From: Polyangia bacterium
GTDB taxonomy: Bacteria; Myxococcota_A; Polyangia; Fen-1088
Direction: 5' to 3'
NCBI GenBank assembly: GCA_036268875.1
Contig: DATATI010000039.1
Span: forward strand, 1 to 64,000
DNA: 64,000 nt
Positions 34,673-62,215 of the stretch are shown here, piece by piece. Position numbers and translations under genes: made by a program. Within the stretch, counting starts at the first letter, position 1, and every line of letters starts with the position of its first letter. Under the pieces are notes generated by a model. That model searched no databases, was not told where the DNA came from, and saw only the letters and a program-made list of their open reading frames with translations.

Positions 34673-37600
34673 ATGTTTCATCCGGTGGTCTCGGCCTGGC
34701 TTTCGCGGAAGTTCGAGGGGCCGACGCCGGCGCAGGAAAAAGCCTGGCCGCTGATCGCCGACGGGCGCGACGTGCTGGTGACGGCGCCGACCGGATCGGG
34801 CAAGACGCTGGCGGCGTTCCTGGCTTGTCTCGACCGCCTGATCGTCGAGGCGATGGATCACGACGGCGTGCTGCCCGATCGCACCGCCATCCTTTACGTG
34901 TCGCCGCTGAAGGCGTTGTCCAACGACATCCGCCGCAACCTGGAAGAGCCGCTGGCGGAGCTGCGCGACCTGGCCGTCGTGCTCGGTTACCCGGCGCCGC
35001 CCATTCGCACTGCCGTGCGCACCGGCGACACCACCGCCCGCGAACGGCGCGAGATGACCCGCCGCTCGCCGCACGTGCTGGTGACCACGCCCGAGTCGCT
35101 GTACATCCTGCTGACGTCGGACTCGGGCCGCAAAGGGCTGCGCGATGTGCGCACGGTGATCGTCGACGAGATCCACGCCGTGGCGGCCGACAAGCGCGGC
35201 GCTCACCTGGCGCTGTCGCTGGAACGCCTGGAGGCGCTGGTGACCGGCGCCGGCGGCCAGCTGCAGCGCCTGGGTCTGTCGGCGACGGTGAACCCGTTGT
35301 CGGTGGCCGGGCACCTGCTGTGCGGCGCCGGCCGCCCCCAGCCGACGGTGGTCGACGTCGGCCAGCGCCGCGACCTGGACCTCGGCATCGAAGTCCTGCA
35401 GGACGAGCTGGGCGCCGTCTGCACCAACGAACAATGGGGCGAGATCTACGACCGCCTGGCCGACCTGGCCCGGGCGCACCGATCAACGATCGTCTTCGTC
35501 AACACGCGCCGCCTGGTCGAACGCCTGGCCCATCACCTGGGCGAACGACTGGGCGAAAACGTGGTCGCCGCCCACCACGGCAGCCTGTCGCGCGAACGCC
35601 GCCACAAGGCCGAACGCCGCCTGAAAGACGGCGAGCTCAAGCTGGTGGTAGCGACGGCGTCACTGGAGCTGGGCCTTGACGTGGGCGCGGTGGACCTGGC
35701 TTGTCTGGTCGGCTCGCCGCGATCGATCGCCACCGGGTTGCAGCGCATCGGACGCTCGGGCCACGCGCTGCAGGCGACGCCGAAGGGCCGGCTGTTTCCG
35801 CTGACCCGCGATCAGCTGGTGGAATGCGCGGCGCTGGTGCGGGCGGCGCGCCGCGCGCAGATCGACGCCATCGCCTTGCGCGACGCCCCGCTGGACGTGC
35901 TGGCGCAGCAGATCGTCGCCGCCTGTTCGTGCGAGGACTGGGATGAAGACGCGCTTTACGCCGTCTGCAAGAAGGCCGCGCCCTACGCCCATCTGGAACG
36001 CGCGCAGTTCGATCAGATCGTCGACATGCTGTCAGAGGGCATCGCCACCAGCCGCGGGCGTTCGGGCGCCATGCTCCACCGCGACGCGGTCGCGCGCCGG
36101 CTGCGCGGGCGGCGCGGGGCGCGCCTCGGCGCGCTGACGTCGGGCGGGGCCATCCCGGACAACGCCAACTACAACGTGCTGCTGGAACCCGAAGGAACGT
36201 TAATCGGCACGCTGGATGAAGATTTTGCCATCGAGACCCTGGCCGGCGACGTGATCCTGCTCGGCAATTCATCGTGGCGGGTGCGGCGGGTGGAAGCGGG
36301 CGTGGTGCGTGTCGAGGACGCCGCCGGCGCGCCACCAACGATTCCGTTCTGGCTGGGCGAGGGCCCGGCCCGCACGCGCGAGCTGTCCGCCGAGGTGGCG
36401 GTGCTGCGCGAGGAGGCGGTCATCCCCACGCCCGCCGACGCGCCCGCGGCCCGCGAAGCCGTGTTGACCTCGCTGATGCAAAGCTGCGCCCTCGATCGCC
36501 GCGGCGCCGATCTGGTGCGCGATTACCTGCGCGCCGGCCAGGCCGTGCTGGGCGCCGTGCCGACGCAGACGCGCCTCATCGCCGAAAGATTTTTCGACGA
36601 GGGTGGCGGCATGCAGCTGGTGATTCACGCGCCCTTCGGCGGGCGCATCAACCGCGCCTGGGGCATGGCCCTGCGCAAGAAGTTCTGCCGCAGCTTTGAT
36701 TTCGAGCTGCAGGCCGCCGCCACCGACGACGGCATCGTGCTGTCGCTGGGCGCGCAGCACAGCTTCCCTCTGGAGGTGGTCTTCCAGATGGTGCGGCCCG
36801 ATGACGTCGACGAGACGCTGACCCAGGCGGCGTTGCAGGCGCCGATGTTCGAGACCCGCTGGCGCTGGAACGCCATGCGCGCGCTGGCTCTGCTGCGCCA
36901 TCAGGGTGGCCGGCGCGTCCCGCCGCAGATCCAGCGCATGCGGGCCCAAGATCTGATCGCCGCGGTTTTCCCCGCCCAGCTTGGCTGCCAGGACAACCAC
37001 GGCGGAGGCGCCATCGAAGTTCCCGATCATCCGCTGGTGCGCGAGACCGTGCGCGATTGCCTGACCGAGGCGATGGACGCCGCCGGCCTGCGCGCGATGC
37101 TGACCGATCTTTTGGCCGGGCGGATCGAGACGATCTGTCGGGACGTCGTCGAGCCGTCGGTGTTCTCGCACGAGATCTTGAACGCCAATCCGTACGCGTT
37201 CCTCGACGATGCGCCGCTGGAAGAACGGCGCACGCGCGCGGTGGCGGTGCGGCGCGGCCTGCCGGCCGACGTCGCCGATCGCATCGGCGGTCTTGATCCC
37301 GAGCGCATCGCCGAGGTGGTGGCCGAGGCGCAGCCCGACCTGCGCGGCGCCGATGAGCTGCACGACTTGCTGCTGGATCTCGGCGGCCTGCCCGAAGCGC
37401 TGGCGGTGGCGCGCGGCTGGGAGCCGTTCTTCGCCGAGCTGGTCGACGCCCGTCGGGCGGCGCGCTTGCTGGGCGGCCCAGGGGATGTCCCGCTGTGGGT
37501 GGCCGCCGAGCGCCGCTCGCTGGCGGCGACGGTGTGGCCCGGCCGCGCCTTCTCGCCCGACGTCGTCGAGCCGCCCGCCCGCCGCGCGCCTGTCTGGACC

Positions 37601-39013
37601 GAACGCGACGGCGCGCTGACCGAAGTGGTGCGCGCGCACCTGCACCTGGTCGGCCCGACGACGGTCACGCGTTTGGCCGCGCGATTGGATGTCCCGGCGT
37701 CCGACCTGGAAGCCGCGCTCGCCCGCGTCGAGATGGAAGGCGGCGTCCTGCGCGGGCAATTCAACCCTGAGATTGGCGCTGGTGAGCTGCAATGGTGTGA
37801 TCGCAGGCTGCTGGCCCGGATCAACCGCCGCATGCTGGACGGCCTGCGCCGTGAGATCGAACCGGCGACGACGGCCGAATATCTGCGCTTCTTGCTGGGC
37901 TGGCAACACGTGCGCCCGGGAACGCAGCTGGCCGGACGCGCGGGCCTGGCGCAGGTGGTGGCGCAGCTGCAAGGCTTCGAGCTCGCCGCCGGCGCCTGGG
38001 AACGCGACGTCTTGCCGACGCGGGTGATCGGCTACGATCCGTCGTGGCTTGATGCCCTTTGCCTTTCGGGCGAGGTGGCGTGGGGGCGCCTGGCACCGCG
38101 CGAGGCGGCCAGCGCGCCCAGCCGCGCGGCGCCCATCGCTTTGGTGCAGCGGCGCGATCTGCCGTGGCTTTTGTGCCCGCCACTCGACGACGGCGCCACC
38201 GGTTTGTCGACCGCCGCGCAGGACGTGCTGCGTTTTCTCGGCACCGCCGGGGCCAGCTTCACCGACGAGATCATCCACGGCGCCGGCCGCCTGCGCAGCG
38301 AGGTCGAGGACGCGCTGTGGGAGCTGGTCAGCGCCGGCCGCGTCACCGGCGACGGCTTCGGCGGCTTGCGCGCGTTGATCTCCGCTACCCAATCGCGCGG
38401 CGGCGCCCGCGCCCGCTGGCACGCGCGCTGGACCCGACGCACCGGCGGTCCGGTCGGCGCCGGCCGCTGGGCCTTGCTGCGCGCCCCGAACCGTCCGTCG
38501 TCCGACACTGACAGCGACAGCGTCACCGACAGCGAGGATCTGCACGAAGCCTTCGCCCGCCAGTACATCAAACGATATGGCGTGGTCCTGCGCGACGTGC
38601 TGGCCCGCGAGCCGCACGCGCCCGCCTGGCGCGATCTGCTGAAGGTCTACCGGCGCCTGGAGATGCGCGGCGAGCTGCGCGGCGGACGCCTGGTGGGCGG
38701 TTTCGTCGGCGAGCAATTCGCCGCCCCCGAAGCCGTGGAAGCCTTGCGCGCCGTGCGCCGGCAATCGGCCCACGCCAAGGACGGCCAGCCGCTGCCGGGC
38801 GAGGTGGTGCGCTTGTCCGCCTGCGATCCGCTGAATCTGGTCGGCGTCGTGACGCCGGGCCCGCGCGTGCCGGCCACCCTGGCCAACACCGTCACCTTCC
38901 GCGATGGCGTCCCCGAGGCTGTCTTTCCCGAGCCGGCCTTTGCTGTACAATCGCCCGGCGTGACTTATCAAGCGATCGCTCCGGCCGGGTCCGGGCTGCA
39001 CGACGAGCTGTGA
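34673..39013 (+). CDS. lhr: Large helicase-related protein Lhr
   Basis: The 1446-residue superfamily-2 helicase shows Walker A APTGSGKTLAAF (Lys44), DEIH box VIVDEIHAVAADKRG, motif III LSATVNP, motif IV STIVFVNTRR, VAAHHGSLSRERR, and motif VI GLQRIGRSGH. The Lhr-core extends to about residue 900 with the winged-helix and beta-barrel parts, followed by a C-terminal Lhr region of about 500 residues. Lhr is a 3'-5' ATP-dependent DNA translocase and helicase active on forks and RNA:DNA hybrids; mycobacterial Lhr is DNA-damage-induced. It lies behind a 16-bp palindrome and overlaps the following PAS-GGDEF gene by 4 bases (GTGA). Confidence 0.95.
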   Translation: MFHPVVSAWLSRKFEGPTPAQEKAWPLIADGRDVLVTAPTGSGKTLAAFLACLDRLIVEAMDHDGVLPDRTAILYVSPLKALSNDIRRNLEEPLAELRDLAVVLGYPAPPIRTAVRTGDTTARERREMTRRSPHVLVTTPESLYILLTSDSGRKGLRDVRTVIVDEIHAVAADKRGAHLALSLERLEALVTGAGGQLQRLGLSATVNPLSVAGHLLCGAGRPQPTVVDVGQRRDLDLGIEVLQDELGAVCTNEQWGEIYDRLADLARAHRSTIVFVNTRRLVERLAHHLGERLGENVVAAHHGSLSRERRHKAERRLKDGELKLVVATASLELGLDVGAVDLACLVGSPRSIATGLQRIGRSGHALQATPKGRLFPLTRDQLVECAALVRAARRAQIDAIALRDAPLDVLAQQIVAACSCEDWDEDALYAVCKKAAPYAHLERAQFDQIVDMLSEGIATSRGRSGAMLHRDAVARRLRGRRGARLGALTSGGAIPDNANYNVLLEPEGTLIGTLDEDFAIETLAGDVILLGNSSWRVRRVEAGVVRVEDAAGAPPTIPFWLGEGPARTRELSAEVAVLREEAVIPTPADAPAAREAVLTSLMQSCALDRRGADLVRDYLRAGQAVLGAVPTQTRLIAERFFDEGGGMQLVIHAPFGGRINRAWGMALRKKFCRSFDFELQAAATDDGIVLSLGAQHSFPLEVVFQMVRPDDVDETLTQAALQAPMFETRWRWNAMRALALLRHQGGRRVPPQIQRMRAQDLIAAVFPAQLGCQDNHGGGAIEVPDHPLVRETVRDCLTEAMDAAGLRAMLTDLLAGRIETICRDVVEPSVFSHEILNANPYAFLDDAPLEERRTRAVAVRRGLPADVADRIGGLDPERIAEVVAEAQPDLRGADELHDLLLDLGGLPEALAVARGWEPFFAELVDARRAARLLGGPGDVPLWVAAERRSLAATVWPGRAFSPDVVEPPARRAPVWTERDGALTEVVRAHLHLVGPTTVTRLAARLDVPASDLEAALARVEMEGGVLRGQFNPEIGAGELQWCDRRLLARINRRMLDGLRREIEPATTAEYLRFLLGWQHVRPGTQLAGRAGLAQVVAQLQGFELAAGAWERDVLPTRVIGYDPSWLDALCLSGEVAWGRLAPREAASAPSRAAPIALVQRRDLPWLLCPPLDDGATGLSTAAQDVLRFLGTAGASFTDEIIHGAGRLRSEVEDALWELVSAGRVTGDGFGGLRALISATQSRGGARARWHARWTRRTGGPVGAGRWALLRAPNRPSSDTDSDSVTDSEDLHEAFARQYIKRYGVVLRDVLAREPHAPAWRDLLKVYRRLEMRGELRGGRLVGGFVGEQFAAPEAVEALRAVRRQSAHAKDGQPLPGEVVRLSACDPLNLVGVVTPGPRVPATLANTVTFRDGVPEAVFPEPAFAVQSPGVTYQAIAPAGSGLHDEL

Positions 39014-39945
39014 GCGCCGGCGCGCACGCCGACGGCCCCGATGCGCGGCTGCTAGAGTCCGCGCTGGCCCTCGTCGCCGACGCCGTCTTCATCACCGACG
39101 GCGCCGGCCATGTCACCTTCGCCAACGCCGCCTTTGGCAAGCTTTACGGTTACGACCAGCGCCAGGCCGGCAATCTGCCCGTCAGCGCCCTGGGGCCGCA
39201 CGAGATCGCCGGCGAGACCGTGCACCGGGCGCGCGACGGTCGGGAGATTCCCGTGCGACTGATCCGGACGCCGACCGGCGCGGCGGGCGATCGGGCTGGC
39301 TGGATCTACGTCGCCCATGATCTCAGCCTAGCGCGCCGCCAAGACGACGCCCTTCGCCGCGCCGAAGAAGCGCTCGCCGCCCAGCGCGCCGCCCTTCAAG
39401 AGCTGGCCGTGCGCGACGAGCTGACCGGCCTTTACAACCACAAAGAGATGCAGCGCCTGCTGGCCGAAGAGGTCGGCCGCGGCCGTCGCTACCGCCGGCC
39501 ATTGTCGTTGCTGCGCCTCGAGGTCGACGGCTTTCGCGACCGCGTCGCGGCTCAACACGGCGAGCGTGCCGCCGACGCCGTCCTGCGCGCCATCGCCGAG
39601 CTCTTGCGCACCAACTTGCGCCCCATCGATCGCCCGGCGCGCTTCACCGGCGACGAACTGGCCGTGATCCTGCCTGACACTTACGCCACCGACGCCGTGC
39701 AAGTTGCCGAACGCCTGCGGTCCCTGGTCGCCGCGCTGTCGACGCCGGTGATCACCGACGGTCGCGAGGGCCAGAACAAGAAGACGTTGAAGGTGACCTT
39801 AAGCCTGGGCGTCGCCGGCCTGAACGAATCAGAAGGCTCCAGCGACCAACTGATCCGCGCCGCCGGCTATGCCCTGGGCGAAGCGAAAGGCCGCGGCCAG
39901 AACTGCGTCGTCACCTTCGTCGACCTGGGCGTCAAGAACGACTAG
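39010..39945 (+). CDS. PAS-GGDEF protein with degenerate cyclase site
   Basis: The GTG start overlaps the lhr stop, so translation is probably coupled. The 311-residue protein has a PAS domain at 14-105 (LVADAVFITDGAGHVTFANAAFGKLYGY), a short coiled coil (105-135) and a GGDEF-fold domain (135-305). DELTGLYNHKEM is intact, but the metal-binding strand reads EVDGF instead of DIDHF and the active loop is TGDEL instead of GGDEF. The RxxD I-site (RPID) is kept at the standard spacing. Loss of catalysis with a kept I-site is the pattern of c-di-GMP receptor proteins (such as PopA). The link to helicase function is inference. Confidence 0.85.
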   Translation: MSAGAHADGPDARLLESALALVADAVFITDGAGHVTFANAAFGKLYGYDQRQAGNLPVSALGPHEIAGETVHRARDGREIPVRLIRTPTGAAGDRAGWIYVAHDLSLARRQDDALRRAEEALAAQRAALQELAVRDELTGLYNHKEMQRLLAEEVGRGRRYRRPLSLLRLEVDGFRDRVAAQHGERAADAVLRAIAELLRTNLRPIDRPARFTGDELAVILPDTYATDAVQVAERLRSLVAALSTPVITDGREGQNKKTLKVTLSLGVAGLNESEGSSDQLIRAAGYALGEAKGRGQNCVVTFVDLGVKND

Positions 39946-39958
39946 CCGAGCGCGCGCT

Positions 39959-41191
39959 TTATTCGTCGCTGTCGTCCTTCATTCCGTGCAACAGACGGGC
40001 CTTCACCCGGGTGAACTGCCGTTCTTTGTAATGCTCGTGGCTGTTCTCGCCGCTCTCGTTCAGCTCAGCGGTGCGGGCGTCGATGATCTGGAACTCGGTG
40101 AGGACGAAGACCACCGTGCCATAGTCGGCGAACAGTGGATCGCCGGGCGGGCGGGCAATGAAGCGATCGATGCGCACCGGTAGATCAGCGACGAAGTTGA
40201 TCACCCGATAGCCGGGGCCAGAAAATTCATTCTGCGGCGACGGCTTCTTGTCGGCGGCCACGGCGGCCAGATCCAGCACGTCAGGCAGGAACTTGGCCAG
40301 GGCCGGCGAGCGCGACAGGGTCTCGCGCACCTTGATGACGTCGTTCACCGACTGTCCCGGGATGACATAGTTGAACGGAACCAGCCGCTGCACCACCTCG
40401 CGCAGCACGAACAAAAGCTGCTCTTCCGAATTGGTGATCATGCGAAAACGCAGCTTGTCGTAGACGTCGGCGGCGATGGATTCCTTCTTGGCCAAGAGCT
40501 TGGTGATCAGGCTGTCGGCGTGCTTGCGGCTCCATTCGAACTCGACCACCTGGCAACCGACACTCTTCACTTCTTCGACGGTACGCAGAACCTTGTCCTC
40601 GACCAGGTGAAAGATCTGGTCGCCTGATACCGCCAGCTTGGTCAAAAGCTCGCGTCCCGCCAGGTGATGCATGACGTGCATGACTTTGAGGACCACGCAG
40701 GCCTGAGTCCGGCGTTTGCCCTTTTGCGAGGCGATGAGCAGCAGATCTTGCGGCGGCACGCCGCTGGCGATCTCCTCGGGGATCTGAAAGCCCAGGTGCC
40801 GCTCGAGGTACTCGACGGCCTGCTCGCGCAGGGCCGCCAGGCGTCGCATGTCATCTTCATCGCGCGGGTCCATCTCGTTGACGCGCAGAAAGCGCTCGAC
40901 CTCGGCGCGATCGGTGAAATACAGCCGGTGCCAATCAATGACCGACCCGCCCCGGAGGAGGTTCCGGATGGCGGTCAGATCCGCCAGGGTGAAGTCTTCG
41001 TAGCGAACTTTGCGAACCGGGGATGGCGGTGCGCCGGGGGGATGCGGCTCGGCCGACGGCGCAGCGTTCGCGGCGTTTGTCGCGGGCGGTTCCAAGCGTC
41101 TCTCTTTTCCGCCGCGCGCTGCGGGGGAAACCGCGCCGGCAGAGGCGAGTCTAGGACTGCACCGCAAACCAGAGCAAGGAGAACGCTTCAA
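39959..41191 (-). CDS. TIGR04552-like protein with RelA/SpoT-like nucleotidyltransferase fold
   Basis: The 410-residue frame opens at a TTG; the conserved part begins near residue 60 (VRYEDFTLADLTAIRNLL), so the real start may be later. I recognise the family as TIGR04552 from memory. The C-terminal half reads like a diverged (p)ppGpp synthetase: KKESIAADVYDKLRFRMI (compare DxxGxR, Asp245), NDVI, GYRVINFVADL (compare GYxSxH, Tyr328, His replaced by Asn), and TEFQIIDARTAELNE...SHEHYKE (compare EvQIRT...AE...HxxYK, Glu366). Whether it makes any nucleotide is unknown. A candidate promoter lies about 130 bases upstream. The 3' end faces the PAS-GGDEF gene, 13 bases away. Confidence 0.75.
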   Translation of the reverse strand: MKRSPCSGLRCSPRLASAGAVSPAARGGKERRLEPPATNAANAAPSAEPHPPGAPPSPVRKVRYEDFTLADLTAIRNLLRGGSVIDWHRLYFTDRAEVERFLRVNEMDPRDEDDMRRLAALREQAVEYLERHLGFQIPEEIASGVPPQDLLLIASQKGKRRTQACVVLKVMHVMHHLAGRELLTKLAVSGDQIFHLVEDKVLRTVEEVKSVGCQVVEFEWSRKHADSLITKLLAKKESIAADVYDKLRFRMITNSEEQLLFVLREVVQRLVPFNYVIPGQSVNDVIKVRETLSRSPALAKFLPDVLDLAAVAADKKPSPQNEFSGPGYRVINFVADLPVRIDRFIARPPGDPLFADYGTVVFVLTEFQIIDARTAELNESGENSHEHYKERQFTRVKARLLHGMKDDSDE

Positions 41192-44231: not shown

Positions 44232-44633
44232 ATGGATGAACGGCGCAAGACCGGCGAGGTCGTTCCTCTGGAAGCGCCACCCACCGACGAGAGCGGCGGG
44301 CCGCACGCGACCAGTGACGGACCCGCGACTGGTGCCGAGGATCGCACCGGCGGCGATCGCCTGGAGCGCGATCGGGGCCTCAGCGATTTCGTGCGCCGGG
44401 CGGTTTCGGCGGGCGTGGGCGCCGCCAGCCGGTCCAAGGACGACATCATGCGGGTGGCGGCCGGCGAGATGCGTTCGTGGCTGGAACACCTCGACTTCAA
44501 CAACGAGCTTTTGAAGACGCTGTCAAAGATGGTCATCGAGGTGAAGACGGAGATCCGTTTTCGCCCGACGGACGACGGCAAGATCGTGCCCGACACCGTC
44601 AACGACGTGAAGGTCAAGCCGAGCAAGCCGTAG
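44232..44633 (+). CDS. Small soluble protein, unknown function
   Basis: The 133-residue protein has a disordered, charged first 45 residues and a compact C-terminal half (about 48-130) predicted to be helical, then a beta-hairpin (LSDFVRRAVSAGVGAAS, MRSWLEHLDFNNELLKTL, MVIEVKTEIRFRPTDD, VNDVKVKPSKP). The pattern looks like a conserved myxobacterial hypothetical protein, but I cannot name a family. It is divergent from the UbiB-like gene, with about 40 bases between starts, and converges with the GAF-GGDEF gene. Confidence 0.6.
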   Translation: MDERRKTGEVVPLEAPPTDESGGPHATSDGPATGAEDRTGGDRLERDRGLSDFVRRAVSAGVGAASRSKDDIMRVAAGEMRSWLEHLDFNNELLKTLSKMVIEVKTEIRFRPTDDGKIVPDTVNDVKVKPSKP

Positions 44634-44661: not shown

Positions 44662-46842
44662 TTATCGCGCGGCGGCCGCTTTGGGCTTGGGCTTGTCGAC
44701 CTCGGCGAAGCAGACGGTGCGGTTGCGGCCGCCGTGCTTGGCGGCGTAAAGCGACTGGTCGGCGCGCGCGATGATGTCGGCCTTTACCTTGGCGTCGACC
44801 GGATAGCTGGCCACGCCCAGCGATAGCGTGGCCTTGAACGGTCCCTTCGACGACTGGAAGGCCTGCTGGCCGACCTCGACGCGGATGCGTTCGGCCAGCA
44901 GGCGCGCGCCGTCCTTGTCCGTTCCTTCCAAAACGATGGCGAACTCTTCGCCGCCGTAGCGGGCGACGATGTCGATCTTGCGGGCGCGGCCGTTCAGGAT
45001 GGCCGCCACCTTGCGCAGCACCTCGTCGCCGGTCGGATGGCCGTAGCTGTCGTTCACCTTCTTGAAGTGGTCGATGTCGGTGAGGATCAGCGACACCGGG
45101 AACTTGTGACGATCCGCGCGTCCCAGCATGGCGGAGAACCGCTCCTGGAACGTGCGGTGATTGACCAGGCCGGTGAGCCCGTCGGTGGTGGCCTGTTCTT
45201 CCAGGGCTTGATACATGTGCGCGTTCTGCAGCGAGATGGCCACCTGGTTGGCGATCACGCCCAGCATCTCGCGCCGGTCCGACGGAAACGCGCCCGCCCG
45301 CCGGGCCGCGACGGTGAAGGTGCCGATCACTTGATCCTTGATCAAAAGCGGCAACACCAGCAGCGATTCCAGATCGCGGATGCGCATCGGGTGCGAAAAC
45401 ACCGGGACGTCACGCTCGCGCCATTCGCCGCCGGCGGGCAAGGCCAGTTTGTTCTTCGCCACCATCGACACCATCGACGACGGATCAGCGTGCGTGGTGC
45501 CGTCCAGCTTGTCGGCCCACTGTCCGACGGCGCGCCGGATGGTGTGCGAGGCGCGGCGGGCGTCGTAGGTGGCGATGGCGGCAAAGTCGAACTCGCACAC
45601 GCCGCGCGCGCCGGCGATGGCGGCGTCGTACACCTCGGCCAGGGTCAGCGCCTGGTTGAGCTCGGCGGAGGCGCGATAGAACCGTTCGTGTTCGTGCTTC
45701 GAACGCTCGACGGCCTGGAACACCCGTTCGGACTGCACCACGCGCACCGCCTGATGGGCCGCGCTGACCATCAGGCCGGCGTCTGATTCGGTGAACGGCC
45801 GCGCTTCCTTGCGATCGGCCACCAGCACCCCGCGCAAGGTCATGCCTTCGACCACGGGCACACCCATGAACGCCGCCACCTCGGCCGGGCCGTTGTAATA
45901 CGGCAGCAGCGACAGCTTGGGCGCGTCCAGCGCGAAGGTGCGCGCATCTTTCATGATCGCGCCCAGCGCGCCGGTGCGCGCCGGGATGGGCGCCTCGGCG
46001 ACGTGAGTGGATTCGGTGCAGAGCTCCTTGACCTTCAGCTTCTCGCCGCTTTCGTCCAGCCACAGCAAGGCGCAGGTCTGCAGGTCCATCGACTTTTTCA
46101 GCAGGTCAAGAATGTAGAAAAGCTGCTGGTGGATGGTCTCGATCGATCCCTGCGACAGCTTCTGCTCCTCCTCGGCACGCGAACGAACCCGGCTGTCAGC
46201 GGACAGCGACGTCGAGATCAGACGGAAATCGCGCGCCTCTTGCTTCATCGACGCCAGCTCTTCGTCCAGGCGGCGGCGGCGCTCGCGGCGCTGGCGCGAG
46301 ACCTCGGCGTGCAGGAAGACCACGTTCAGCAAGGCGAAGATGGCGATGAAGCCGGCGTGCGAAAGAAAATCCGCCGACGCCGACGGACCGGCGCTGGGCC
46401 GAAACGACAGCACCGCTTCGAAACCGATCGCCGCGGCAGCCAGCGGCAGGCCGACGGCCAGCTGGTGAAACGTCACCAGGAAGCTGACCACCGCATAGAC
46501 CAGCGGATGCACGGGTGAGGACGTGCCGCCCGAGACCGCCAGCAGCACGTAGACCACGGTCAAAAGCAGGATGCCGAGCTCCGCGTCGGACAGCGCTTCG
46601 CGCCGGGGCGAGCGCCGGCGCTCGGCGGTGCGCACCCGGGCCGAGATCCTCGTGCCCAGCAGCAACGTCAGCAGGCCGGCCGCGCCGGCCAGCCGCAGAT
46701 CACCGCCGGGCTGGCGCAGGTCGCAAAACCACCCTTGCCATAGCAAAGCCAGCAGTGCCCCGCAGATGACGAATCCCAGCGTGGAGCGCAACGTCCGCCC
46801 GACGGCGTAGGTGATGCGCTGGCGAATTTTGGCCGCTCTCAT
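44662..46842 (-). CDS. Membrane GAF-GGDEF diguanylate cyclase
   Basis: The 726-residue protein has about six hydrophobic helices in the first 180 residues, a coiled coil (about 185-235), two GAF-like domains (about 240-375 and 400-545), and a C-terminal GGDEF domain (555-715). The cyclase motifs are complete: TDGLTGLVNHRTF, LTDIDHFKKVND, ARYGGEEFAIV, and an RxxD inhibition site (RKID) at the right spacing. It should make c-di-GMP in response to signals bound by the GAF domains. It begins 9 bases after ftsB and probably shares its transcript. Confidence 0.9.
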   Translation of the reverse strand: MRAAKIRQRITYAVGRTLRSTLGFVICGALLALLWQGWFCDLRQPGGDLRLAGAAGLLTLLLGTRISARVRTAERRRSPRREALSDAELGILLLTVVYVLLAVSGGTSSPVHPLVYAVVSFLVTFHQLAVGLPLAAAAIGFEAVLSFRPSAGPSASADFLSHAGFIAIFALLNVVFLHAEVSRQRRERRRRLDEELASMKQEARDFRLISTSLSADSRVRSRAEEEQKLSQGSIETIHQQLFYILDLLKKSMDLQTCALLWLDESGEKLKVKELCTESTHVAEAPIPARTGALGAIMKDARTFALDAPKLSLLPYYNGPAEVAAFMGVPVVEGMTLRGVLVADRKEARPFTESDAGLMVSAAHQAVRVVQSERVFQAVERSKHEHERFYRASAELNQALTLAEVYDAAIAGARGVCEFDFAAIATYDARRASHTIRRAVGQWADKLDGTTHADPSSMVSMVAKNKLALPAGGEWRERDVPVFSHPMRIRDLESLLVLPLLIKDQVIGTFTVAARRAGAFPSDRREMLGVIANQVAISLQNAHMYQALEEQATTDGLTGLVNHRTFQERFSAMLGRADRHKFPVSLILTDIDHFKKVNDSYGHPTGDEVLRKVAAILNGRARKIDIVARYGGEEFAIVLEGTDKDGARLLAERIRVEVGQQAFQSSKGPFKATLSLGVASYPVDAKVKADIIARADQSLYAAKHGGRNRTVCFAEVDKPKPKAAAAR

Positions 46843-60485: not shown

Positions 60486-62215
60486 TGAGACCGTCGCGTC
60501 GCCCGTGCCGCGCGAACGGACCGACGGTGACGCTGGCCCTGACGCTGGCACTGGCATGGGCGCTTGACGGTGTTGCGTCGGCGCAAATGTCCAAGCGTCC
60601 GCTGGCTCCCGCGCCGACGACAGCGGCGGCGGCGACCTCCACCGCGCCACCGCCGGTGAACGCGCCACTGCCACCGACGGCGACACCCCCGGCGGCGCCG
60701 CCAGCCGCGGCCGAACCGGAGGTGCTGGTGGGCAAGCCCAGCGGCCGCCCGGTGCTGGCGAACGCAGCGCGCCCGCCGACGGCGGCCGATCTGCCCAAGC
60801 CGCCGCCCAAAGATCCCGCCGCCCGCCGCGAGTGGCTGCGCACGCAGCTGGACGAGGTGTTCGGCGCGCCCAGCCTGGCAAAAGCCAAGGTCGGCGTGAT
60901 GGTGGTGGAAGCAGACACTGGCAGGAAGGTTTACGCACGGTCCGACAAGACGCTGCTCAATGCCGCGTCCAACGTCAAGATCGTCACGTCGGCAGCGGCG
61001 CTGGGCATGCTGGGTCCGGAGTACCGCTGGAAGACCACGCTGTCGGCGGCGGTTCCGGCGTCGGGCCCGCTGCTGGGCCCCGGCGGCGAGCTGGGCGGCG
61101 ATCTTTACGTACGCGGCTTCGGCGATCCCACGCTGACCACGCAGGATCTGAACGCGATGATTGCCGACCTGGCGTCGCTGGGGCTGCGCAAGATCGCCGG
61201 CGGGGTGGTGGTCGACGAGACCTTCTTCGATCACGCGCACGTCGGGCCGGCGTACGATCAGAAGAACGAATCGTATGCTTCGCGCGCGCCGTCGTCCGCC
61301 GCGTCGCTGAACAACAACGTCGTGGCGGTGACGATCGTCCCGGGGCCCAGCCCCGGCGTGCCGGCGCGCGTGCTGCTGGAACCGGCGTCGCCCTACTTCA
61401 CCGTCAGCGGCCGCATCGTCTCGTCAGGCGAGGGACCGGCGGCGCACACCGTGGAGACGCAAGACGACGGCCACGGCCACACGGTCATCGTCGTCGGCGG
61501 CCGCGTGCGCGCTGGCGGCGAAGCCCACACGCTGCTTCGGCGGGTGGTGGATCCGCCGGCGTATCTGGGGAATACCCTGCGCCAACTTTTGGATCGGCGC
61601 GGGATCTCTGTCGGCAAGCCGGTGCGGGTGGCGGCGGCACCAGCACAGGGTCTGCGCATTCTGTCGACGCATGAATCAGCGCCGCTGGGCGTGGCCGCGC
61701 ACGATCTCAACAAGCGATCGAATAACTTTGCCGCCGAGCAGGTGCTGCGTACGCTGGGGGCCGAGGTGGTGGGCCGGCCGGGCAGCTGGGATCACGGCCT
61801 GGAAGCGGTCGCTCGCTATCTGGTCACCGCCGGCGTGGCGCGCGGCAGTTATCAGATGACCAATGGTTCGGGCCTATATGAATCGAACCGTTTCTCGGCC
61901 GAGCAAATCACGCAGGTCCTACGGGCGGCGACGCGCGATTTTCGCATTTCTGCCGAGTTTTTGGCCTCTCTGGCTGTGGCCGGCACCGACGGAACCATCG
62001 CCCATCGCATGACCGGCACACTGGCCGAGCGATTCGTCAGAGCCAAGACAGGAACGCTGGCCACCGCGAGCTGCCTGTCAGGGATCGCCGGATCGCCCGG
62101 CCATATCCCGCTGATTTTCTCGGTGCTGATGAACGACGTGGCCAGTGCGGGTGAGGCCCGTCGTCTCCAGGATCGGGCTGCTGAACTGCTGGTCGCTTAT
62201 CTCGAAGCGGAATGA
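60452..62215 (+). CDS. dacB: D-alanyl-D-alanine carboxypeptidase/endopeptidase (PBP4, DacB)
   Basis: The 587-residue periplasmic enzyme has a signal peptide (core TLALTLALAWALDG, cleavage near ASAQ) and an Ala/Pro-rich linker to about residue 120. The PBP4 domain carries the three penicillin-binding motifs: SxxK as SNVK (Ser173), SxN as SNN in KRSNNFAAEQ, and KTG in RAKTGTLATAS. It trims peptidoglycan cross-links and stem peptides. The frame is open from 60452; a GTG at 60527 just before the signal core would avoid overlap with the divergent gene and may be the real start. Confidence 0.9.
   Translation: MSRLAVTPGFPLRPSRRPCRANGPTVTLALTLALAWALDGVASAQMSKRPLAPAPTTAAAATSTAPPPVNAPLPPTATPPAAPPAAAEPEVLVGKPSGRPVLANAARPPTAADLPKPPPKDPAARREWLRTQLDEVFGAPSLAKAKVGVMVVEADTGRKVYARSDKTLLNAASNVKIVTSAAALGMLGPEYRWKTTLSAAVPASGPLLGPGGELGGDLYVRGFGDPTLTTQDLNAMIADLASLGLRKIAGGVVVDETFFDHAHVGPAYDQKNESYASRAPSSAASLNNNVVAVTIVPGPSPGVPARVLLEPASPYFTVSGRIVSSGEGPAAHTVETQDDGHGHTVIVVGGRVRAGGEAHTLLRRVVDPPAYLGNTLRQLLDRRGISVGKPVRVAAAPAQGLRILSTHESAPLGVAAHDLNKRSNNFAAEQVLRTLGAEVVGRPGSWDHGLEAVARYLVTAGVARGSYQMTNGSGLYESNRFSAEQITQVLRAATRDFRISAEFLASLAVAGTDGTIAHRMTGTLAERFVRAKTGTLATASCLSGIAGSPGHIPLIFSVLMNDVASAGEARRLQDRAAELLVAYLEAE

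Follow-up and report, generated by a model that had tools for sequence, protein, structure and literature searches.

The window analysed here, a stretch of 64,000 nucleotides from a Polyangia bacterium (contig DATATI010000039.1), carries on its reverse strand an open reading frame (ORF) that raises the question of which reaction its product may catalyse. The ORF matches the NCBIfam model TIGR04552 over profile positions 2-351 of 352 (E 1.7e-99; 333.5 bits against a cut-off of 125) and gives a full-length match to the sister model TIGR04562 (317.4 bits, cut-off 140), both of which are NCBIfam subfamilies without a functional name. A literature search revealed no functional study of TIGR04552, in agreement with the earlier note on this DNA, which knew of no tested function; in the literature covered, the family is named in one paper only, in a mutation table (PMC9888234), and TIGR04562 was not found to be named. 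The sequence and structure comparisons described below suggest that the TIGR04552 protein is likely an ATP-dependent 3'-pyrophosphokinase, a distant and probably active relative of the (p)ppGpp synthetases. The features of the ORF are collected in Table 1. Most homologues begin to align at residues 43-66 and GGAAAAGAGAG lies directly upstream of a second TTG, so the true start is perhaps downstream, and this second TTG may be a likelier initiation codon than the first TTG of the ORF.

Table 1. Features of the TIGR04552-family gene and of its product
Feature	Positions	Strand	Basis
TIGR04552-family ORF	39959..41191	(-)	410 aa counted from first TTG
Alternative start TTG	41095	(-)	378 aa; GGAAAAGAGAG directly upstream
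N-terminal all-helical domain (predicted)	40556..40990	(-)	residues ~68-212, ~140 residues; model blocks pLDDT 79-98
RelA/SpoT synthetase-fold (nucleotidyltransferase) domain (predicted)	40010..40630	(-)	residues 188-394 (model residues 121-327); VIA-align and Foldseek
R222-K223-xxx-S227-xxx-K231-xxx-K235, putative ATP-phosphate motif (RelSeq RxKxxxSxxxK)	40487..40528	(-)	K223, K231, K235 65/65; S227 63/65; R222 57/65
D245-xxxx-R250, putative Mg Asp and adenine-stacking Arg	40442..40459	(-)	both 65/65; correspond to RelSeq D264/R269 and SaRelP D107/R112
P278-G-Q-S-x-N283, family-specific motif opening the acceptor-side insert	40343..40360	(-)	N283 65/65; P278 63/65
Variable acceptor-side insert	40232..40342	(-)	alignments
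N321-x-F-S-xxx-Y328-R-V-I-N332, counterpart of the PKxNxYxSxH G-loop	40196..40231	(-)	N321 65/65; Y328 64/65
E366-F-Q368-I-I-D371, counterpart of RSH EVQIRT	40079..40096	(-)	E366, Q368, D371 65/65; E366 matches RelSeq E323
N378-E-x-G-x-x-S-H385-x-x-Y388-K389-x-R-Q392, counterpart of RSH AExGxAAHWxYK	40016..40060	(-)	Y388, K389, Q392 65/65; H385, G381, R391 64/65

Relationship to RelA/SpoT synthetases and predicted fold

Homologues were gathered from 189 Myxococcota genomes and by a genome-wide scan, and 65 of these were aligned. Taken alone, the window protein scores below the Pfam cut-off of 27 against PF04607 (RelA_SpoT; E 0.012, 16.3 bits), and a search of the PDB with it as a single sequence found no relative. 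When the members were scanned individually, PF04607 was matched at E<=1 by 62 of the 65, with a best E of 6.8e-8, and one member that is 45% identical to the window protein (L002) clears the Pfam gathering score, with 29.7 bits over PF04607 positions 4-112 of 113. With at least one member above the Pfam cut-off, the superfamily link is already implied by the databases for some sequences, where it has remained latent. A PDB search with the family profile returned RelSeq (E 5.6e-4) and YwaC/RelP (2.1e-3) as top matches, in alignments that line up the K-S-K, D-R, EQ and H..YK segments. Comparison of the family with 27 myxobacterial long-RSH synthetase domains by hhalign, a profile test of the kind that the earlier note had proposed, gave P values of 7.5e-8 to 2.7e-8, whereas the control with a reversed profile gave 0.021 and the 20 controls with shuffled columns gave 0.13-0.72. 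By profile comparison, the TIGR04552 family is homologous to the RelA/SpoT synthetases. The description of the protein as a divergent RelA/SpoT-like enzyme from a family that is uncharacterised is thus borne out by the controlled profile-profile comparison, by the family-wide Pfam matches and by the fold, and the five segments originally aligned by eye are all present, in order and conserved across the 65 homologues. What the present analysis adds is that the whole family belongs to the superfamily, with the ATP half intact, the acceptor half rebuilt, and a core-gene rather than toxin-like behaviour.

The AlphaFold2 model, which was built on an alignment of 65 fairly similar family sequences, has a mean pLDDT of 87 and a pTM of 0.85. 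A Foldseek search of the PDB with this model gave RelP as best match (E 6.3e-5, probability 1.00), and the 24 PDB matches at E<0.001 are all RelP, RelQ, Rel and related entries of the GTP pyrophosphokinase family. With VIA-align, RelSeq aligns to the model with a Z score of 13.0 (rmsd of 3.0 over 125 residues) and RelA and RelQ with a Z score of 12.8, the RelQ comparison being one suggested at the outset, while most RSH synthetases give Z scores of ~10-13 over 118-150 residues. DNA polymerases, which belong to the wider nucleotidyltransferase superfamily, reach Z scores of at most 8.8. Against a library of viral structures, the model resembled polyvalent phage proteins, RelA/SpoT and Tas1, all with weak scores. 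The protein is therefore predicted to carry the RSH synthetase fold, as matched in the model.

The synthetase-fold domain is preceded by an all-helical domain in which Asp86 and Cys165 are invariant among the 65 homologues and His172 and His176 are near-invariant. These four residues may together make up a metal or ligand site; Cys165, His172 and His176 are placed along a single long helix (i, i+7, i+11). Modelled separately (pLDDT 84), the N-terminal domain has no PDB match at E<0.001, its best structural resemblance being to RbcX-like helical proteins, which match weakly (best Z of 5.8 with an rmsd of 12.7). Pfam recognised no HD hydrolase, TGS or ACT domain in the window protein. A reading of the N-terminal half as an HD hydrolase was set aside, as there was neither a Pfam HD match nor a significant PDB match, searches in which a fold match could be missed. 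Since no HD domain was recognised, the suggestion that the protein may degrade a nucleotide appears unlikely.

Donor and acceptor sides of the putative active site

In SaRelP, the phosphates of ATP are held by K80, S84 and K88, the adenine is stacked by R78 and R112, and the ribose is bound by H190; D107 and E174 are the Mg ligands, and Y151 of the G-loop is critical for the guanosine nucleotide (PMC5794853). The aligned counterparts in the window protein are Lys223, Ser227 and Lys231 (ATP phosphates), Arg250 (adenine), Asp245 and Glu366 (metal), His385 (ribose) and Tyr328 (G-loop). Lys223, Lys231, Asp245, Arg250, Glu366, Gln368, Tyr388 and Lys389 are invariant in all 65 aligned proteins. The assignment of His385 follows from the Glu-to-His spacing, which at 19 residues is identical to that of RelSeq. 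The counterpart of the other adenine-stacking arginine (R241/R78) is shifted by one residue and is lost in 8 of the 65. The conserved ATP-site residues are also kept in a paralogous branch that is 24-28% identical to the window protein. Because the residues expected to bind Mg-ATP are invariant, or nearly so, even in such distant paralogues, the donor half of the site looks functional.

Major differences from the canonical enzymes are found on the opposite, acceptor side. In the canonical RSH of the same phylum, the P-K, N, Y, S and H of the G-loop motif and the E, Q and R-T of EVQIRT are invariant (27/27). The TIGR04552 family lacks PK at the aligned place of PKxNxYxSxH, and EVQIRT has become EFQxxD, such that Arg-Thr is replaced by an aliphatic residue and Asp. 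Position 370 is Ile, Leu, Val or Met in 64 and Cys in one of the 65, followed by Asp371 in every case, where the canonical RSH have Arg-Thr in 27/27. Asn283 and Asn321 are both invariant and specific to this family. The distance from Asp245 to the G-loop Tyr is 83 residues, compared with 44 in RelSeq and SaRelP (+39), which confirms the longer middle insert noticed at first sight, and a second insert extends the Tyr-to-Glu spacing to 38 residues from the 15 of RelSeq (+23). The initial observation that one His has been replaced by Asn is more qualified: the substitution is real at residue 332 of the window protein but clade-specific, since this position, the His place of GYxSxH, is still His in 30 of the 65 homologues, with Asn in 26, Gln in 7 and Asp in 2. 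In a divergent branch (L006, L009, L012, L015, L022, L023 and L028), VKPSRSRN and SIQFTCRQ replace VIPGQSxN and VINFVVD. The alignments suggest that the acceptor pocket has been rebuilt by the two inserts together with the fixed changes EFQxxD, Asn283 and Asn321. As the acceptor half of the active site is changed, the product cannot be read from the sequence.

Compared with RelSeq, RelA and Rel, the TIGR04552 protein presents the same fold, the same order of motifs and the same set of Mg-ATP residues (K, S, K, D, R, E, Q, H and YK) as proteins with PF04607, but differs in having no recognised HD, TGS or ACT domain, in its changed PKxN, IRT and, often, His, and in possessing two inserts and a separate helical N-terminus. 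It resembles RelP (SAS2) and RelQ (SAS1) as a stand-alone synthetase without a hydrolase, with ATP-site residues as in SaRelP (PMC5794853), although members of the TIGR04552 family are larger, with ~340-380 residues, which include the N-terminal domain and the inserts, in contrast to the ~200 of RelP and RelQ, which are homotetramers of a lone synthetase domain.

Proposed reaction and the identity of the acceptor

In the proposed mechanism, Lys223, Ser227, Lys231, Arg250 and His385 would hold Mg-ATP and Asp245 and Glu366 would position the metal; a nucleotide stacked on Tyr328 would receive the beta,gamma-pyrophosphate of ATP on its 3'-OH, and AMP would be released. GDP/GTP or some other nucleotide may serve as acceptor, because the pocket appears to have been rebuilt by the two inserts and the fixed changes, and we regard GDP/GTP and something else as about evenly balanced. 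A regulatory function or a part in choosing the acceptor is probable for the N-terminal helical domain and the inserts. The most likely role of such an enzyme would be that of a second, chromosomally fixed alarmone-type synthetase acting alongside the single canonical long RSH.

Two narrower forms of this explanation can be distinguished. In the first, which we hold only tentatively, the protein is a plain (p)ppGpp synthetase, that is, a lineage-specific small alarmone synthetase using ATP and GDP/GTP, whose divergence is regulatory only. The retention of the G-loop Tyr in 64 of the 65 homologues and of all the catalytic residues is in line with this reading, and an accessory synthetase is plausible because most genomes have one canonical PF04607 protein only. 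Moreover, a genus represented by two incomplete genomes has a TIGR04552 protein while its canonical RSH was not found. Against it, all members of the family have other residues in place of R327-T328 and the PK, which do not vary among canonical RSH, and large inserts flank the G-loop.

In the second form, which seems possible to just the same degree, pyrophosphate would pass to a different acceptor, whether adenine nucleotides, to give (p)ppApp, another small nucleotide, or an RNA 3' end. The combination of a kept donor half and a rebuilt acceptor half speaks for this form, and the earlier suggestion that the protein may make another nucleotide becomes likelier given the changed acceptor side. 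Precedents exist within the superfamily, where adenosine nucleotides are used by known members (PMC12691689) and CapRel acts as a tRNA pyrophosphokinase (title of PDB 7ztb). Nothing, however, points to any particular acceptor, and the makers of (p)ppApp are described as toxins (PMC12691689), whereas the TIGR04552 gene shows no toxin-like behaviour.

A sensor or regulator that has lost catalysis and binds ATP or alarmones would account for the degenerate acceptor motifs and for the additional N-terminal helical domain. This possibility appears improbable, since both metal-binding carboxylates and the lysines expected to contact the ATP phosphates are present in 65 of 65 proteins, including the paralogues at 24-28% identity, and such residues would not be expected to persist in a dead enzyme.

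Distribution, inheritance and genomic context

The TIGR04552 family is present in 119 of the 189 sampled Myxococcota genomes, usually as one copy, while 14 well-known control genomes gave no match. Of the 18 genomes in the GTDB family to which the window belongs, 16 contain it, and the two without a match are 70% and 87% complete. Of 40 relatives of an Archangium sp. genome (G193; L102), 38 have a member, and that genome itself contains three paralogues. The genome from which the window derives has one canonical long RSH at a separate location on C74, the only protein that TIGR00691 finds in this genome; it lies downstream of an apparent guanylate kinase gene. Most of the genomes examined likewise have a single canonical PF04607 protein. 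In two genomes of one genus (G082 and G117; locus L134), a TIGR04552 protein is present, whereas searches with PF04607 and TIGR00691 gave no canonical RSH, which may reflect a gap in the assemblies (87% and 84% complete) or a substitution of the family for RSH in these organisms. Across 12 genomes, pairwise distances between the TIGR04552 proteins rise in step with those between the RSH proteins (Spearman 0.92, Mantel p 5e-4; Spearman 0.89 when the divergent paralogue is left out). No family match was obtained in phage, plasmid and viral collections or with PADLOC, and no constant neighbour was found across 39 related loci. Such a pattern fits a chromosomal gene passed on vertically and does not fit a toxin-antitoxin module.

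A toxSAS- or CapRel-like toxin of a toxin-antitoxin or defence system, an option raised in the earlier note with its mention of a toxin-like derivative, shares the superfamily and the catalytic fold (CapRel, 7ztb, matches the predicted model with a Z score of 8.2), but such an identity is very improbable for a gene that mostly occurs once per genome, follows the core genome in its divergence, has no constant neighbour across 39 related loci that could be its antitoxin and gave no match in the phage, plasmid and viral sets or with PADLOC.

In Myxococcota such as Myxococcus, starvation leads to multicellular development, for which (p)ppGpp is the classical trigger. That most of these genomes carry a conserved synthetase-fold enzyme that is unstudied, and that it is recorded in Bdellovibrio too, suggests that the alarmone network of Myxococcota and predatory Bdellovibrio may have a missing member. 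It is conceivable, if unlikely, that the family constitutes a housekeeping class with the RelA/SpoT fold that transfers pyrophosphate to an acceptor other than GDP/GTP and provides both groups with a second nucleotide signal or an RNA modification; if true, this would be a previously unknown signal or modification beside (p)ppGpp.

The record outside Myxococcota is DOE51_RS08710 of Bdellovibrio sp. NC01, annotated as a TIGR04552 family member, in which a single-base indel was among the high-frequency mutations (>75%) of line B during experimental evolution with one prey (PMC9888234). As the indel rose to high frequency in one line, the gene was probably dispensable under those conditions in this single event, and its loss may have been favoured under a steady supply of prey or the indel may have hitchhiked. 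The RSH census of 2011 kept in its trees only matches below E 1e-5, and its main text does not contain 'Myxococc' (PMC3153485).

In other lineages, the gene lies near Mfd, Lon, Hsp33, NifU or a sigma-54 activator, while its neighbours in the window encode an Lhr helicase, a PAS-GGDEF protein, a TPR protein, an ABC1 kinase and a GAF-GGDEF protein. As shared neighbours recur in few loci only and differ between lineages, no functional link was drawn from the neighbourhood. An ORF of 133 residues between the ABC1-kinase and GAF-GGDEF genes (44232-44633 (+)) has no Pfam match at 1e-5, and at 60694-60786 (-) ARAGORN calls a 93-nt tRNA-Ala with the anticodon AGC, which is unusual in bacteria and possibly a false call. 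Two diguanylate cyclase (GGDEF) genes are located less than 4 kb from the TIGR04552 gene, one of the PAS type (39010-39945 (+)) and one of the GAF type (44662-46842 (-)), and the former shares 4 bases with the end of the Lhr-type helicase gene (34673-39013).
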